DNA of 20,708 nt from a virus. How positions within the stretch are numbered: position 1 is the first letter of the stretch; each line of letters begins with the position of its first letter. The stretch spans positions 1 through 20,708 of the IMG/VR virus record IMGVR_UViG_3300046001_007659. The stretch is one strand, 5' to 3'. Below are positions 4,993 through 12,146 of the stretch, one piece after another. Position numbers and translations under genes: made by a program. The notes below the pieces were generated by a model, which worked only from the letters and a program-made list of their open reading frames with translations, had not been told where the DNA came from and did no database searches.

Positions 4993-6186
4993 TTATTTTG
5001 TTATAAATTTTACTAAATCTTTGTTTAACATTAATAAATTAAATTTACTTGGATTTGCATTATAAATAGATTTTATCATTTGATAACATATATCAGTTGT
5101 AAAAATACCTTCTGTAACCATTTTACCTAATCTATCAATAATAGTTTTTTCAACTTTATTAGTTTTAGCAAACACATCTAAATAGTTAGAAACCCTAGTA
5201 CCTAATGTTGAGGCAATATCTGCTCTATAATTTTTATCTTTACCAACTAAAGACTTTAATGTGTTTAAAACATATTTTTCATCTTGTGAGAATATATGTT
5301 CTGGTGAGATAATTCTATCTAGTTTATTATTAATAAACATTGTAAATAAACTTGCAAATTCACTACCAACACTACCTTCTCCAATCATTTGAATTAATGG
5401 TAATTGTTCTTCAAATGATTTAATAGATGAAATTGAATTAAAAAACATTACTACACTACGAGCGTTTACATCTTTAGTAACTAATTCTGGATGCATCAAT
5501 AAAAAATTAATACATCTACCATCCATTTGAGACTCTTCAGCCCACTTACCCCAACATTTAAGATCAAATTTTAAATTAGCAGATATAAATCGCGTTTTTT
5601 GAGCGTTATCAATACTATTAACTAAATAATCTCCATTATCTGGATTTGAAGTTAATATAATATGCCAATCTTTAGGCAACTTCCAACTAATATATTGTTG
5701 GCGATCTATTAATTCCATTACAGCTTGAATAAATCTAACATCAGCTCTATTCCAATCATCTAATAATAAAATACCACCTTTTTTCTTATTACTAATCCAT
5801 TCAGGTGGGCAATAACTCATTCTGTTCTTACCAGTTGATTTATAACCTAATTTTAAATACTCATCAAATGCATGTTCATCTACCCATATTTTGTCTTCTT
5901 TCATTTCTACTTCAAACTGACGGATTGGAAAACCTACTAAGTCACCAATTTCTTCAATTTGAGCTAAATTTAATTTAACAAAATCTAATCCATTTTCTTC
6001 AGCTAATTGAATAATTGCTGATGTTTTACCAATTCCTGAATCACCTACTACTTCAGTTGATACAGGTGGTTTACCATTTTCTTGTAAGAAACGATTGTTC
6101 ACTACAATGTGATTTAAAAAATCTTTTAATTCGTTAACATTTAATGAAAGCGATTCTGTTTTACTACTTGTTTTACTTTTAGCCAT
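4993..6186 (-). CDS. MoxR-type AAA+ ATPase, 397 aa
   Basis: ATPase of the MoxR/dynein-like AAA+ branch. Walker A is GDSGIGKT at 48-55, Walker B is GGILLLDDWNRAD at about 137-149, sensor 1 is ILTSNPDNGDY at 177-187 and a candidate arginine finger is Arg199 in QKTRF. MoxR ATPases work as chaperone-like remodelling machines with a VWA-domain partner, and that partner is encoded immediately upstream at 6267-7526. It has its own copy of the early promoter, 46 nt before the start, in addition to any read-through from the VWA gene. The role in the phage is unknown; assembly of a metal-dependent complex or interference with a host system are both possible. Confidence 0.88.
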   Translation of the reverse strand: MAKSKTSSKTESLSLNVNELKDFLNHIVVNNRFLQENGKPPVSTEVVGDSGIGKTSAIIQLAEENGLDFVKLNLAQIEEIGDLVGFPIRQFEVEMKEDKIWVDEHAFDEYLKLGYKSTGKNRMSYCPPEWISNKKKGGILLLDDWNRADVRFIQAVMELIDRQQYISWKLPKDWHIILTSNPDNGDYLVNSIDNAQKTRFISANLKFDLKCWGKWAEESQMDGRCINFLLMHPELVTKDVNARSVVMFFNSISSIKSFEEQLPLIQMIGEGSVGSEFASLFTMFINNKLDRIISPEHIFSQDEKYVLNTLKSLVGKDKNYRADIASTLGTRVSNYLDVFAKTNKVEKTIIDRLGKMVTEGIFTTDICYQMIKSIYNANPSKFNLLMLNKDLVKFITK

Positions 6187-6232
6187 AACCTTTATTTATT
6201 TTATTTTTATTTATTTTACTTATTTAACATAC

Positions 6233-6265
6233 TAAATATAACATCATTGTTTGGGGAAGCCAAAC
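6233..6265 (-). promoter_or_regulatory. Early-type promoter for the AAA+ ATPase gene
   Basis: On the minus strand GTTTG, 20 bp, TATATTTA. The spacer creates a perfect dyad GTTTGG-CTTCC-CCAAAC including the upstream element. Confidence 0.8.
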
Positions 6266-6266
6266 A

Positions 6267-7526
6267 CTACCTTATTATTTGTACTTTTTGTCCTGGAAAA
6301 TCCGGTTTCATATCACCATCAGTAGTTATAACCCATAATATAGGTCTTACTGGTTTAGTTTCTGGTACTGGACATTCTCCATCAGTTAAGTAAATCATAT
6401 TTTGGTATTTACCTTTATTTTGATTTAAATACTTAATTACTGGCTCAAATGCTGTTCCACCTCTACCTTGAACATGTATTTTATCTTCTGTTTTACCTTT
6501 ATATTGGTAAACTCTTTGTACATCAGCATCACATTCAATCACATCTACTTCAGTACCTGTTTTATAGATATGTTGTATTTCATTAAAGAAATCAGCTAAA
6601 TCTTTATCTGAAACAGAACCTGATGTATCAATAGCTACTAAAGTGTTTTTACGTTGTTTAATTTTAAGTGCCGGATTGCCCGCAAAACGTCGATTTAACT
6701 TACGTCTAGTCTTCTTAGTATATATTTTGGTAGCCATACCATTAAAGCGTCTTAAATACGCCTTCCAATCAATTACTGGTTCTTCTATTTCATATAAACT
6801 ATTAATATATTGACCAAGTTCTCCTGGAATTATACCTCTATTTTTCTTCACTTGTTCAGCTACATCTTTTAATTGATGGTCAATTTGTTTACCAATTAAT
6901 TTCTTATCAGCTTCACTCATTTCATCAAATTCTTTCCACATTTCATGTGTACATGGAACTGTCATTTTTGATCCATCTCCTAAAGTAACAGTTATTGAAT
7001 TACCATCTCCCGAACCATCACCACTCATTCCACCCTCTAAAGCTCCTAACATAGACGCTATATCACCAAAGGGATTTTCATCAACTTCTTTTTTTAAGAG
7101 ATCATAATATACTCTAGTACCTGCTTTTAATGGTAATTTTAATTCTTTAAATGGTTTTTTATTTATTTCTAAACCATCCCATGTTTTACCTTTCCATGTA
7201 CTTTCAATATATTGATTAATCTCAATATCAGCAGCTATATTTAATAATTGTTTATTTTCAAACTCACTCATAGAAGTTAAATGATGAAATGCTATATGTA
7301 ACAATTCATGTTTCAAAATAGCTACTTTAGTGTTCTCATCTTGTTTTTCCCAAAAATTAGGATTAACCATTAATGATACATTTATGTTTTCTTTACAAAC
7401 ACAAGCAGTTTGAATACTACTATTTAGTTTTTTGTTTAGACCAATTAGGAATAAACCATAAAATGGCTCTTTAAACATTAATGTTTTAGCACATTTTGCA
7501 ATTTCTGAGTGAATATTATCTATCAT
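6267..7526 (-). CDS. Metallopeptidase-like plus VWA-domain protein, 419 aa
   Basis: Two-domain protein. The N-terminal half has the zinc-binding signature KHELLHIAFHH (HExxH at 73-77) followed by NIAADIEIN at 96-104, typical of the putative metallopeptidase domain (DUF2201-like) that precedes VWA domains. A Gly-rich linker lies at about 161-177. The C-terminal half is a von Willebrand A domain with the MIDAS motif DTSGS at 300-304, the conserved Thr in GGTAF near 358 and TDGE at 381-384. Such proteins pair with MoxR AAA+ ATPases, and one is encoded next in the same direction. It likely acts in the cytoplasm as a regulated metal-binding scaffold or protease; whether it cleaves anything is untested. 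The promoter lies 23 nt upstream and the leader ends AAATAAAAGTT. Confidence 0.87.
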   Translation of the reverse strand: MIDNIHSEIAKCAKTLMFKEPFYGLFLIGLNKKLNSSIQTACVCKENINVSLMVNPNFWEKQDENTKVAILKHELLHIAFHHLTSMSEFENKQLLNIAADIEINQYIESTWKGKTWDGLEINKKPFKELKLPLKAGTRVYYDLLKKEVDENPFGDIASMLGALEGGMSGDGSGDGNSITVTLGDGSKMTVPCTHEMWKEFDEMSEADKKLIGKQIDHQLKDVAEQVKKNRGIIPGELGQYINSLYEIEEPVIDWKAYLRRFNGMATKIYTKKTRRKLNRRFAGNPALKIKQRKNTLVAIDTSGSVSDKDLADFFNEIQHIYKTGTEVDVIECDADVQRVYQYKGKTEDKIHVQGRGGTAFEPVIKYLNQNKGKYQNMIYLTDGECPVPETKPVRPILWVITTDGDMKPDFPGQKVQIIR

Positions 7527-7934: not shown

Positions 7935-8678
7935 TTACCAAGCACGACAAGACCAATATCTTGCTTTAGTACGTGGTCCTGGATTATCACAATTCATACG
8001 CGCTCTAAAAGCTTTACGTCTTTTTGGGTTATTCTTTTTAATAACCATTCTTTTACCTTTAGCTGATGTGCCACCAAATCCAAAGTTAACTTTAACTACT
8101 TTACCTTTAGGATTTTTAACATACACTTTAAATTTCTTAACATCACCTTGCATTGGTTTGCCTAATTGAACTTTACGTCCTTGATACTCAGCTTCATTTA
8201 TTTGATTTTCATTTAATCGAGAAGAATATTCTTTCATAAACTCAATAAATTCTTTTATATCTTGTTTACTTTCCACATCATATTCATCTGCTTCAGTTAA
8301 TATATTTTTGTAGAATTCATCATTTAACCATTCACTTCCATTCTGTTTTATAGATCGTTGAAAATAAGGTAATTGTTCTAAACTTGAAACTCCATTTGGA
8401 GCCTCAGCATCATAAAATTTATTATTAAGTTTAACCCAAGAATGTCCATTAGAATCATTTGGTAAGTCATAAGACCATTGATGTTGTCCACCAAATTTCT
8501 TTACAAATAAACTGGCCCACATATCACAATAGCCATCATTAATTTCCTTAGGAGTCAATGAAGTATAATCTTCACGATATTCATTGTTAATTTTATCTAT
8601 TAATTCAGAGTTAAATTCTGAATCAATATTAACTATACTTTTATCTACTTCTAATAATATATCTATTAACTGTATCAT
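7935..8678 (-). CDS. Candidate internal-head protein: capsid-targeting N-terminus, papain-like domain, basic phage domain (247 aa)
   Basis: Three parts. Residues 1-10, MIQLIDILLE, match the operon's shared N-terminus and end in a T4 prohead-protease type site (L-L-E). Residues 45-105 look like a small papain/transglutaminase-like domain: Cys51 in NDGYCDMWASLF, His79 in NGHSWVKLNN, Asp90 in KFYDAEAPNG. A linker with two further (L/I)-x-E sites (LNE 155-157, INE near 160-162) leads to a basic domain, starting GRKVQLGKPMQGDVKKFKVY and ending NPGPRTKARYWSCRAW, which I recognise as a module that occurs alone in other T4-like phages directly after a short targeting peptide. The protein may be packaged and cut in two. 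Last gene of the six-gene cassette, 3 nt after the previous stop. Confidence 0.8.
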   Translation of the reverse strand: MIQLIDILLEVDKSIVNIDSEFNSELIDKINNEYREDYTSLTPKEINDGYCDMWASLFVKKFGGQHQWSYDLPNDSNGHSWVKLNNKFYDAEAPNGVSSLEQLPYFQRSIKQNGSEWLNDEFYKNILTEADEYDVESKQDIKEFIEFMKEYSSRLNENQINEAEYQGRKVQLGKPMQGDVKKFKVYVKNPKGKVVKVNFGFGGTSAKGKRMVIKKNNPKRRKAFRARMNCDNPGPRTKARYWSCRAW

Positions 8679-8681
8679 ACT

Positions 8682-9215
8682 TTATTTTTTGAATTTTACT
8701 TTTGCTTTTTTAGTATTAGGTACAAATTGTTTATTTGATGCTGCTTTTTTTCTTGATGTTGCAGCACGCTCAGCTTTAGTTAAACTATTTGCTTTAGCAC
8801 GAGGTAAACAACGAGTTGTTTTCTTACCTTTTTTCATTGTACCACACTCACCTGTTATATTACCTGCTGTATCAATACGAACCCAATCTTCTTTTTTAAA
8901 CCAATCACGAAGTGATTCACTTAATTCATGTTCTTGAAGTGATGTGTATGTATCACTATTATCATGTCCACATTTATGACAAATAAAAGGATCTTTACCA
9001 CCATCTTCTAAACTCCAACTCCATCCACAATTAGTACATATTATATCTTCATCATTTCCTTCCATTAATCCTTTACATACTTTAACAGCACGCCCAGAAA
9101 GATAAGCAGATGGTTTTTCACCTGCTGCTCTACGACGATCATAATAAGCTCTACCTTTTTTACAAAGTTTCTTTTCAGCTAATAGATCTAATAATATTTC
9201 AGTTAATTTAAACAT
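8682..9215 (-). CDS. Candidate internal-head protein: targeting N-terminus, zinc ribbon, lysine-rich tail (177 aa)
   Basis: Start chosen at 9215 (MFKLTEILLDLLAE) and not 24 nt upstream, since the longer form overlaps the preceding gene and hides the shared N-terminus. The (L)-x-E site is L-A-E at 12-14. Residues 17-49 form a basic module, AYYDRRRAAGEKPSAYLSGR, that I recognise from other phage proteins. Residues 60-82 form a zinc ribbon with Cys60, Cys63, Cys79 and Cys82 (CTNCGW then CHKCGH). Then comes LSE at 98-100 and a second recognisable phage module, SLRDWFKKEDWVRIDTAGNI, CLPRAKANSLTKAERAA, ending in a Lys-rich tail. DNA binding in the capsid is plausible. Several modules joined by potential protease sites make it polyprotein-like. 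Confidence 0.8.
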   Translation of the reverse strand: MFKLTEILLDLLAEKKLCKKGRAYYDRRRAAGEKPSAYLSGRAVKVCKGLMEGNDEDIICTNCGWSWSLEDGGKDPFICHKCGHDNSDTYTSLQEHELSESLRDWFKKEDWVRIDTAGNITGECGTMKKGKKTTRCLPRAKANSLTKAERAATSRKKAASNKQFVPNTKKAKVKFKK

Positions 9216-9220
9216 ATTAT

Positions 9221-9463
9221 TTATTTTATAGGTTCCCACCAGTTAGTACAATACTCATCAGCTGCGTAAGGAATTTTATCAGTTCCAGCCCAATCTATAT
9301 AATAAGTACTTAAACAAATCTGTTTTTCTTTATTCCACCATTTACAATTAGCACAACAAGAACCACCTTTAGGTACTTTTAAACCTGCTTTATGAGTGGG
9401 AGGTAAAATCATTTCACCTGGGCCACCATAATCTTCTGTTAATATATTTTGTAATTTTATCAT
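9221..9463 (-). CDS. Candidate internal-head protein with a HiPIP-like cysteine cluster (80 aa)
   Basis: Starts MIKLQNILTEDYGGPGE, with L-T-E at 8-10 as candidate prohead-protease site. The rest is a compact Cys-rich domain: GGSCCANCKWWNKEKQIC, then IPYAADEYCTNWWEP. The spacing CxxC ... C ... C with aromatic residues and the C-terminal YCTNWW resembles the small high-potential iron-sulfur-like proteins encoded by T4-like and other environmental phages; a bound metal or Fe-S cluster is likely but the identity is unproven. The start overlaps the stop of the 261-aa gene by 4 bp. If the cleavage is real, the mature product would be a 70-residue metalloprotein delivered in the head. Confidence 0.82.
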   Translation of the reverse strand: MIKLQNILTEDYGGPGEMILPPTHKAGLKVPKGGSCCANCKWWNKEKQICLSTYYIDWAGTDKIPYAADEYCTNWWEPIK

Positions 9464-10245
9464 ATAAGTTTCTTTTGAAGTTTTTTTATAGCGATTTGTA
9501 AACTTTTAACATAATCTTGTTTTTGTTTGATATTTCTATCTTTCCAACTAGGAACTATAGAATTGTAACGATCAGTTTTTTCTCTATTATAAAGTGCTTC
9601 ATCATAATCGTAATTTTTATCTGCTCCTCTTTCGATCATTTCTTCCCAAGAAGGCCATACATAATAATCTGGTTTTGATGTTACTGATTTTAGAATTTCT
9701 TCATCACTCATTTCAGAGTTTGCTTCAATTTCTTTATTTGTTTTATCTATTCTTGTTTGAAAACTTTCAATTTCTTGATTTATTTTTTCTATTTTAGATA
9801 ATTGTTTAATCTTATCTTTATAAACATTAGTAATATCTGAATTACCTGTTTTTCCTAATCTAGTCTTAGTAATATAACGATAATGTAATTCTTGAATACT
9901 ATGACCTCCAGCTAATATAGCTTCTGTTTCAAATGGATATACAGTTCCATCTCTTTCAATTTCAGCATTTATTTGAATACTTCCTTTACGAGATCTTCTT
10001 GCATTCACTGAAATAAGTTTATCAGTTGGTTTAGTATATGATTCAATTGCTTTAACCATATCTATAATAAGTCTCCATCTAAATATTTCTCTTTCATATT
10101 CAGTAACAGGTTTTTGGAACTTCTTAATATACCATTCTTCTATTTCAGCTACCATATCTTCTATAGTAGGTTTTAATTCATCTAATATAGTATCAACTAT
10201 ATTTTTATTAAGCACTTCTTTTAAAAGTATTTTAAGTTTAATCAT
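9460..10245 (-). CDS. Candidate internal-head protein, coiled-coil, 261 aa
   Basis: N-terminus MIKLKILLKEVLNKNI, with L-K-E at 8-10, as in its neighbours. No enzymatic motif. The middle has an Arg/Lys segment (NARRSRKGSIQINAEIERDG) and the block AGGHSIQELHYRYITKT. Residues about 145-180 (IKQLSKIEKINQEIESFQTR) and the C-terminus (QIAIKKLQKKLI) are strong coiled-coil candidates. It is a highly charged, helical, rod-like protein, reasonable for a packaged or scaffold-associated protein but unassigned. Overlaps both neighbours by 4 bp. Confidence 0.75.
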   Translation of the reverse strand: MIKLKILLKEVLNKNIVDTILDELKPTIEDMVAEIEEWYIKKFQKPVTEYEREIFRWRLIIDMVKAIESYTKPTDKLISVNARRSRKGSIQINAEIERDGTVYPFETEAILAGGHSIQELHYRYITKTRLGKTGNSDITNVYKDKIKQLSKIEKINQEIESFQTRIDKTNKEIEANSEMSDEEILKSVTSKPDYYVWPSWEEMIERGADKNYDYDEALYNREKTDRYNSIVPSWKDRNIKQKQDYVKSLQIAIKKLQKKLI

Positions 10246-10658
10246 TTCATTTCAATTTTACCTATTGTCTCGGGATTAATGTATTTTGGAAGAAATTGTT
10301 TATATATTCTACTACGCTTTTCGTTTGTTCCTTTAATTATAATTTTATCTATTTCTTCATCATATTGATAATAGAAATCATTAATTATATCAGCCAGTGT
10401 TTGAAGAATATTTCTAGCATCTCCTTCTCCTGTCATTTGAAATGTATCTATTTTATTAAAATTTCCTGTATCTATTCCAAATGATACTTCAAATTCTCTA
10501 GCTTTTTCTTTTGAGCTGAATACAACTTTATATTTGTTTTTTTCAGTTTTGAAAGTATATTCTACATCAATTAAACTATTATCTTCGTCATCATATGTTG
10601 TATCATATTCTGAAAATGAGTAAGAAATTTCTTTTAATATGTCTAATAATTTTATCAT
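10242..10658 (-). CDS. Candidate internal-head protein, 138 aa
   Basis: N-terminus MIKLLDILKEISYSF, with L-K-E at 8-10. The remainder is an alpha/beta protein: beta-strand rich TFKTEKNKYKVVFSSKEKAR, then MTGEGDARNILQTLADIIND, then DKIIIKGTNEKRSRIYKQFL. This order (beta sheet with a pattern of EVSFGI, a helix with ILQTLADII, then IxxIxGTxEK...RxxIYxxF) resembles a family of small proteins found in many T4-like phages; I know no function. It starts one base after the stop of the 226-aa gene and overlaps the next gene by 4 bp. Confidence 0.78.
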   Translation of the reverse strand: MIKLLDILKEISYSFSEYDTTYDDEDNSLIDVEYTFKTEKNKYKVVFSSKEKAREFEVSFGIDTGNFNKIDTFQMTGEGDARNILQTLADIINDFYYQYDEEIDKIIIKGTNEKRSRIYKQFLPKYINPETIGKIEMK

Positions 10659-10659
10659 A

Positions 10660-11340
10660 TTATATTTTTACATTTAATTTCATTTCCTCAGCATACCATT
10701 TTAAAAATGGTGCTAATTCACTATAAGTATTAACTTCAAGTAAATCTGCTTTCTTTCCTGGTCTTGGTGCGTGGAATTGCTTATTTGCTTTTATTCTTGA
10801 TGATACTACCCAACCATATAAATTTCCAAAGTGTTTAAGATCTAATAAGTAATATTGATCACAATCTACTAACACTTCTCCTACAGGTTGTGTTGGCCAA
10901 GTATTTACATATGAATCTATTATTGGTTGAACAGATTCATTCTTTTTTATTGTTTGGCTTAAATTAGCATAAATATCACTTACTTTAGGGCTCCAAACTG
11001 TTTTATATGATGGTACTGGAATCATTATAAATTCAGGTCCAAAAAATCCTTTTTTAGAGTCTTTATAAGAAGCATATACTATATGATCCATCCCAAACTT
11101 ATTAGTTAGTTCTGTAAAAGCATCTTTAATTTTAGGTTCCTGATTTAAAGCTACTCCAATCTTTCCTTTAGTCCATTCTTCAGTATCTACAAGAATTAAT
11201 CCATAATTGTTTTCAACATTAAATCCTCTTATAAGAAATTCTTTATTACCTAATGATTTACATATATTAGCAGCCTTATCAAAATCATCATTTGTAATTT
11301 TATTAAGTGCTTCTTTTAGTATGCTTATTAATTTTATCAT
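10660..11340 (-). CDS. Candidate internal-head protein, 226 aa
   Basis: N-terminus MIKLISILKEALNKITND, with L-K-E at 8-10. First gene of the six-gene M-I-K-L cassette; 4 nt after the 63-aa gene stop. Beyond the N-terminus it looks globular and mixed alpha/beta, with Lys- and aromatic-rich blocks such as FGPEFIMIPVPSYKTVWSPK and VLVDCDQYYLLDLKHFGNLY. No known fold or catalytic signature recognised. The C-terminus ends LKWYAEEMKLNVKI. Possible roles include head-packaged effector or DNA-condensing protein; this is inference from the shared N-terminus only. Confidence 0.75.
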   Translation of the reverse strand: MIKLISILKEALNKITNDDFDKAANICKSLGNKEFLIRGFNVENNYGLILVDTEEWTKGKIGVALNQEPKIKDAFTELTNKFGMDHIVYASYKDSKKGFFGPEFIMIPVPSYKTVWSPKVSDIYANLSQTIKKNESVQPIIDSYVNTWPTQPVGEVLVDCDQYYLLDLKHFGNLYGWVVSSRIKANKQFHAPRPGKKADLLEVNTYSELAPFLKWYAEEMKLNVKI

Positions 11341-11543: not shown

Positions 11544-12146
11544 TTACGCTACTAATAACGCATGAAATTCTTTAAAATGTTTAATACGATCAGGTAAACC
11601 AATAGTACCACCGTTAACTCGTTTAGTTATAGCGGTTACATCAGCATCTGTAGCGCCTTTATCAGCTAATGCATTTAAGCCGTTTTTAGAGAAAAACCAA
11701 GCAGCAGACAATAAAGGATATTTAGTTGCTACTAATTCCGGTGTTTCAAGTAAATTTTCAGTTACTGACTTATCAAATTCAGTGTAATTAGCTTTACCAG
11801 TTAATTGAATATAACCACGACCACGGAATTTATATCCTTCACCTGATGTTTCAGGACCATTACCCATACGAGATGCATAAACTAAATTAGCAATTTTCTC
11901 AGGTTTACGTTCATATAAAGCAGCTTTCTCATCTGTAGGAAAGTACTTACCAAATATACCACGTAAGCCTTTAGCTCCATAGTTTAAATTTTCATTAACT
12001 GCTTTAAAGCCTCCACTTTCATGACCACATTGGGCTAAAAAATGAGCTAAACGTAAAGGAGTGTTGATGTTGAACTTTGCCATAACATCAGGAATTTGAG
12101 CTATAACAGCGTCAGGGATGTGTGTTTTTAATTTATCTAAATTCAT
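11544..12146 (-). CDS. GH19 chitinase-like endolysin, 200 aa
   Basis: Glycoside hydrolase family 19 domain covering the whole protein. Key parts: LAHFLAQCGHESGGFKAVNE at about 33-52 with catalytic Glu43 in HES, ENLNYGAKGLRGIFGKYFP at 52-70, YASRMGNG at 90-97 and GEGYKFRGRGYIQLTGKANY at 102-121. In phages this family cleaves the glycan strand of peptidoglycan. There is no signal peptide or membrane anchor, so release needs a holin or another route, and none is obvious nearby. It is the first gene of the unit that continues into the 63-aa gene and the M-I-K-L cassette. The leader has an ATATTTAT box at 12161-12168 but no TTTG element. Co-expression with candidate virion proteins means a virion-associated role is also possible. 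Confidence 0.92.
   Translation of the reverse strand: MNLDKLKTHIPDAVIAQIPDVMAKFNINTPLRLAHFLAQCGHESGGFKAVNENLNYGAKGLRGIFGKYFPTDEKAALYERKPEKIANLVYASRMGNGPETSGEGYKFRGRGYIQLTGKANYTEFDKSVTENLLETPELVATKYPLLSAAWFFSKNGLNALADKGATDADVTAITKRVNGGTIGLPDRIKHFKEFHALLVA

Follow-up and report, generated by a model that had tools for sequence, protein, structure and literature searches.

The locus at positions 7935 to 9215 of a 20,708-base fragment of a virus record, here called the window, raises the question of whether a phage gene for head cargo yields one packaged protein or several. The known head cargo of T4 consists of single proteins that carry a removable label. At this locus, a reading of the sequence alone had proposed that single genes may encode two packaged products, released in the capsid by (L/I)-x-E cleavage. 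Comparison with relatives supports this well through conservation of the borders, the boundaries of stand-alone homologues, and co-occurrence with an S77 protease. From this evidence, all of it drawn from sequence, we consider it very probable that a T4-like phage makes both proteins as polyproteins of capsid cargo, which a gp21-type (S77) protease cuts at module borders.

All window features given here lie on the minus strand. The genes for the 247-aa protein (7935..8678) and the 177-aa protein (8682..9215) are the last two of a cassette of six consecutive genes (7935..11340), each of which starts with a capsid-targeting-like peptide of the MIKLxxILxE type; such a start was absent from all other coding sequences in the list of 36 examined. 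The four further cassette genes (9221-11340), also with capsid-targeting-like starts, encode proteins of 80, 261, 138, and 226 aa; the 80-aa protein is Cys-rich and is kept in 14 fetched loci, and the 261-aa protein shows 81% identity in L354. Near the cassette, on its upstream side, is a gene for a GH19-type endolysin (11544-12146; phrog_181, 1.1e-70). The window also encodes an AAA ATPase beside a VWA/metallopeptidase DUF2201 protein (4993-7526; 1.4e-19), resembling a MoxR-VWA pair, and a relative of metal-dependent phosphohydrolases (2016-2798; phrog_28876, 1.1e-8).

The 247-aa protein is ordered as the targeting peptide MIQLIDILLE (aa 1-10; 8649..8678), a papain-like domain (P), an acidic helix (D), and a basic module (A), and the 177-aa protein as the targeting peptide MFKLTEILLDLLAE (aa 1-14; 9174..9215), module C, a zinc ribbon (Z), and module B. 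Judged by their residues, both peptides fit the T4-type CTS, with a length of 10 to 19 residues, hydrophobic residues at positions 4 and 7, and an L/I-x-E end. The [LI]xE triplets of the 247-aa protein are LLE8-10 (in the targeting peptide), LTE127-129, IKE141-143, LNE155-157, and INE160-162; those of the 177-aa protein are LTE4-6 and LAE12-14 (in the targeting peptide), LME50-52, LQE93-95, and LSE98-100. The translations thus place LNE, INE, and LSE exactly where the earlier reading had put them. Total triplet counts only slightly exceed those of shuffled sequence (4 versus 1.7 expected, P = 0.07; 3 versus 0.9, P = 0.05). Two triplets within a border window are rarer by chance (P = 0.003 and 0.0014, for windows picked after the fact). 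Counting triplets is insufficient for a claim of polyproteins, and it is their conservation in the sequences of relatives that decides.

Module A (aa 163-247; 7938..8192; net charge, +22) follows the predicted processing site INE (aa 160-162; 8193..8201), which directly precedes AEYQGR; a phrog_7595 match covers aa 159-247. Genes for this module are present in at least several hundred virus contigs. Among the matches listed, 298 open reading frames (ORFs) have a readable module A start, and in 205 of these an [LIVM]xE triplet stands directly before the module (199 exactly, 6 shifted by one residue), while 80 are stand-alone and start at the module and 13 are other. Across 123 distinct contexts from T4-like relatives, position −1 is Glu in all 123, which is by construction because the contexts were selected for the triplet, yet only 13 ORFs outside the stand-alone group are without it. 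Position −3 is I in 60, L in 42, V in 15, and M in 6 contexts, position −2 is free, and position +1 is A in 113 and S in 7; V or M at −3 departs from the T4 rule of L/I-x-E. The sequence upstream of the module varies widely in residues and domains and ranges from 45 to 702 residues in length. A few remote relatives of module A have no recognizable site at the expected place. In one fusion, from Methylophilales phage Melnitz-3 (L087:1336-3288), a cytidylyltransferase-like domain with the targeting-like start MKKFSEIIE is joined to module A via MME/SEYQGK (a slash marks the predicted cut), which from its sequence is possibly a packaged nucleotide enzyme.

Domain P (aa 11-129; 8292..8648) is predicted with high pLDDT over aa 21-120, and its Cys51, His79, and Asp90 are conserved in three aligned sequences. 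It had no Pfam peptidase match. A fold search of the PDB with the 247-aa model gave no match at an E value of ≤0.001, so the papain fold of P is unconfirmed by that search; a search of BFVD matched chiefly uncharacterized phage proteins, and a sequence search against solved structures returned nothing convincing. Relatives of P are encoded at five loci only, and their similarity to the 247-aa protein stops at KNI (aa 126). After KNI the window continues with LTE/ADEYDVE, L354 with QSSTTEITE/DLRDW, which begins module B, and L355 with unrelated sequence. Since the homology ends at KNI and is followed by LTE here and by ITE in L354, the junction of P is LTE127-129 (8292..8300), a predicted processing site before ADEYDVE with pLDDT of <50 at aa 129-136. 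The sequence-only reading, which had LNE and INE exactly between the papain-like domain and the basic module, was right about the triplets but not about the end of the domain, where it missed LTE127-129. Nor do P and module A share a direct border, as the acidic helical segment D (aa 130-157; 8208..8291; net charge, −5) intervenes.

Segment D precedes module A in about 100 ORFs. It ends in the predicted processing site LNE (aa 155-157; 8208..8216), with pLDDT of <50 at aa 157-159, and 23 of 25 long D-A linkers have such a second site ahead of module A. Some 30 short relatives that stand alone consist of a targeting peptide, an acidic segment, and [ILVM]NE/AEYQGR, one example being MISLKNLLNE/EIHTEEYTVENYHDIKEFCEFMKEYKSDMNE/AEYQGR. 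Because these short relatives already have both D and the site, INE appears to be an older site of the basic-module unit rather than a product of fusion.

In the 177-aa protein, module B (aa 101-177; 8685..8915; net charge, +17; phrog_23735, 1.9e-13) follows the predicted processing site LSE (aa 98-100; 8916..8924), which precedes SLRDWF, with pLDDT of <50 at aa 91-106. We refer to this module only as DUF5872-like, as the protein scores 19.5 bits against a gathering score of 27.5 bits for DUF5872 (PF19197), which a relative, L056, barely reaches. When upstream sequences were reduced to <40% identity, 22 of 24 contexts had [LIVM]xE at exactly −3 to −1 of module B, compared with a background of 2.4% per position in the same proteins. 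One exception, INE/EGLRAWF in Synechococcus phage S-SRM01, is off by one residue, and the other, from a phage of the kind that has no site, probably reflects a wrongly assigned start. In stand-alone forms of module B, a targeting peptide ends directly at the same bond, as in MDDNRLQELVSE/SLRDWF, MTHERLQELISE/SLRDWF, and MIKLLDILNE/SLRDWF. The earlier statement that in other phages the basic module follows a targeting peptide directly is therefore exact for module B, whereas with module A a spacer of 15 to 33 aa usually separates the targeting peptide from the site.

Upstream of module B are basic module C (aa 15-52; 9060..9173; net charge, +9), which ends at LME50-52, and zinc-ribbon module Z (aa 53-95; 8931..9059), which has four Cys, weak zinc-ribbon matches, and its end at LQE93-95. 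A triplet follows CKG in 22 of 34 distinct module C ends and is absent where C is the end of the protein; module Z lies close behind a targeting peptide in L056. From sequence, LME50-52 and LQE93-95 are probable further processing sites, which the sequence-only reading had missed. Stand-alone copies of module C in L335, L340, L343, and L344 end in a lysine run after CKGQMSG, while fused copies mostly continue with LME or LKE.

If the triplets are processing sites, genes for the separate modules could be expected to begin at the same points, and this check, set with the original proposal, was borne out for both modules. In non-T4-like phages the modules are stand-alone and start within about 1 residue of the predicted cut (MAKYQGR compared with INE/AEYQGR). 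Stand-alone module A relatives start with M-A-x-Y-x-G-[KR], including MAKYQGR in Pelagibacter phage Aegir and MATYKGK in Roseobacter phage CRP-902, and module B of Phage C75C1 starts with MGELKKWRDQNW. With roseophage CRP-902 as the query, all 80 of 80 module A ORFs were stand-alone, began at the predicted cut, and were without the site, and a fused module A was never found within this roseophage-like set; nearly all module A relatives from other queries had the site. We also looked in relatives for loss of the motifs at module borders and found them conserved there.

The presence of sites coincides with that of the gp21-type protease family S77 (PF03420). Among complete genomes, S77 was detected in all 4 that have the site and in none of the 3 that lack it, and among long contigs in 9 of 14 and 16 of 25 with the site (25 of 39 together) and 0 of 18 without it. 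Pooled, these are 29 of 43 site-bearing and 0 of 21 site-less records (Fisher P = 6.5e-8), although the contigs are fragmentary and related by descent and the samples were chosen by queries, so that the Fisher and binomial figures overstate independence and serve as a guide only. Many long relatives encode S77, including the 88-kb contig of L270 (the closest P0002 homologue), and in relatives gp23, a substrate of this protease, retains an [LIV]xE triplet at its N-terminal border. No S77 gene was found in the 20.7-kb window fragment, and so we infer the protease from these relatives.

Predicted structures and the residues around the sites are consistent with cleavage at the borders. In the AlphaFold2 (AF2) model of the 247-aa protein (mean pLDDT, 78), three better-predicted parts are set apart by stretches of low confidence at aa 129-136 and 157-159; the model of the 177-aa protein is weak (mean pLDDT, 64), with pLDDT of <50 at aa 52-54 and 91-106 and low values at both ends. 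Alignments were shallow (36 and 22 sequences, respectively), with rows from annotated phage records excluded. In these models the low-confidence breaks coincide with the predicted cut sites. In the targeting peptide of T4 IPIII, residues 4 and 7 serve targeting and residues 8 and 10 serve processing, which Asp at position 10 blocks (PMC9026906). Hydrophobic residues occupy the equivalents of positions 4 and 7 in 61% and 58% of 119 N-terminal peptides but in 37% and 9% of 103 internal sites, while positions 8 and 10 are kept in both sets owing to how the sites were chosen; on this basis, the internal sites look to be for processing only. We also considered whether MKEYSSRLNE (aa 148-157) repeats a T4 targeting peptide in full inside the chain. 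Its spacing fits, but Met148 is not conserved and internal sites in relatives are without hydrophobic residues at positions 4 and 7, and this candidate was dropped.

The modules recur in many combinations. In the fetched loci, the six modules (A, B, C, Z, D, and P) form 20 arrangements, including C-B, C-Z-B, C-B-D-A, Z-B-D-A, and P-B-Z; the C-B-D-A order of L003 brings relatives of the two window genes together within a single ORF. Domain P is joined at the same residue of KNI to D-A via LTE in the window and to module B via ITE in L354, and where other domains have been inserted between C and B, they too finish in [LIVM]xE/SLRDW. We judge it somewhat better than an even chance that marine and freshwater T4-like phages make combinatorial cargo polyproteins, in which small modules (basic, zinc-ribbon, and enzyme) are rearranged like beads, each delimited by a head protease site. 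One peptide would then import several products at fixed stoichiometry, and new fusions would work immediately, their modules being set free by the maturation protease.

Two further observations concern insertions and larger chains. ParB-like segments (GGNTRLMVARAKG, DGNHRLGAF, and GGRTRLYASL) lie between cargo modules in L272, L274, L280, L318, and L330. In Synechococcus phage S-SRM01, a 609-aa protein (L088:2653-4482) has DUF5661, a DUF5872-like module, and DUF6321, its domains split by [LI]xE triplets (INE/EGLRAWF and LQE/VTDKPGKG), and its gene adjoins that for the terminase small subunit; from its sequence, it may be a larger example of such a polyprotein.

Several other explanations could account for triplets at these borders. 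That a common three-residue motif occurs by chance in ordinary linkers is suggested by motif counts within both proteins that barely exceed those of shuffled sequence; exact positional matches in 22 of 24 and 84 of 99 relatives, against a background of 2 to 4%, refute this as the sole explanation and make it scarcely credible. Separate products could instead arise from internal translation starts rather than proteolysis, as Met148 of the 247-aa protein is 15 codons before module A and Met is common nearby in relatives. We regard this as highly improbable given that the window has no start codon at INE/A or LSE/S, that Met148 is replaced in several relatives (FLKAY and FIREY), and that internal starts explain neither the −3/−1 pattern nor the link to S77.

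The triplets might also be uncut, either as relics of fused targeting peptides or as part of the folded N terminus of the module. Stand-alone module B genes have a targeting peptide exactly at this place, so that a triplet could remain from a fusion in which the stop codon was lost, and AEYQGR is part of a conserved domain. Against this, upstream residues have fully diverged and are unlike targeting peptides, whereas −3 and −1 have been retained and −2 varies freely; homologues in phages without detected S77 retain the module but not the Glu; and replacement of Glu by Asp, which blocks processing in T4 (PMC9026906), is almost never seen. We consider such relics quite improbable. Less easily dismissed, but still unlikely, is that the internal site serves solely to mature the basic module. 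All that precedes INE or LSE would then be a long propeptide, degraded or expelled, leaving one packaged product per gene. Most T4 propeptides and core fragments do exit the head (PMC9026906), and in 126-aa relatives only a targeting peptide and an acidic segment of about 33 aa, which could shield the basic module, precede the site. However, the upstream parts are often folded and conserved, as with P, C, Z, the ParB-like insertions, and the cytidylyltransferase-like domain of Melnitz-3, and both P and C are found after a targeting peptide in differently arranged proteins as well.

Under the polyprotein reading, one N-terminal targeting peptide would bring the whole chain into the prohead core, where the Glu-specific gp21-type (S77) prohead protease would cleave behind the (L/I)-x-E of the targeting peptide and behind the one at each module border. 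The predicted products are the papain-like domain (aa 11-129), the acidic segment (aa 130-157/162), and module A (aa 163-247) from the 247-aa chain, and module C (aa 15-52), the zinc ribbon (aa 53-95), and module B (aa 101-177) from the 177-aa chain. The small acidic segment would probably be discarded or left as a peptide, and the basic modules would bind packaged DNA and, with the enzyme-like domain, probably stay with it and enter the host. Import, cleavage, packaging, retention of both products, and product function are what we infer by analogy from knowledge of T4. If the polyprotein reading is true, one gene delivers several proteins and annotation of one ORF as one product is misleading for such phages, whose protease sites would delimit unknown injected proteins. 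It would also account simply for the free fusion and shuffling of modules in phages with the protease and for their occurrence as single genes in phages in which none was detected.

Targeting peptides, the protease, and its motif are already known from T4, as are multidomain injected proteins (PMC5512222). In a literature search, with most subscription journals outside it, we found no description of T4-like cargo chains with head protease sites at module borders. The window proteins resemble the gp21-processed T4 proteins IPI to IPIII and Alt (PMC9026906) in their N-terminal peptide of about 10 residues, which is hydrophobic at the targeting positions and closes with an L/I-x-E processing site, their basic cargo, and their clustered genes, and relatives encode the S77 protease and gp23. 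The T4 proteins, however, each give a single product with only an N-terminal propeptide (Alt also has a C-terminal one), whereas several modules with a site at each border are present here. Like the T4 core proteins gp22, gp67, and gp68 (PMC9026906, PMC7411985), in which gp21 makes several internal L/I-x-E cuts in one chain in the prohead, the window proteins have multiple sites; those of the core proteins break up scaffold or core for removal, but here they separate independently occurring modules. The inner head proteins of phiKZ, 201phi2-1, and SPN3US (PMC5694885, PMC9026906) are alike in their Glu-specific gp21-like protease, packaged cargo, and redundant propeptide sites and differ in having a single long propeptide and motifs of the form S/A-x-E or A-x-E, with release of multiple modules unreported in the parts of these sources consulted. 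Polyvalent proteins of phages and conjugative elements, including DarA and DdrB of P1, are also multidomain and predicted to be packaged and injected, and the polyprotein analogy has been drawn for them (PMC5512222). Polyvalent proteins are characterized by several conflict-related domains of distinct biochemistry in a packaged chain. The window proteins have several modules per chain, and release by an embedded peptidase was not seen in them. For polyvalent proteins, release is proposed to occur via embedded peptidase domains, whereas here the head maturation protease would act in trans, at short conserved sites, to free small basic modules.
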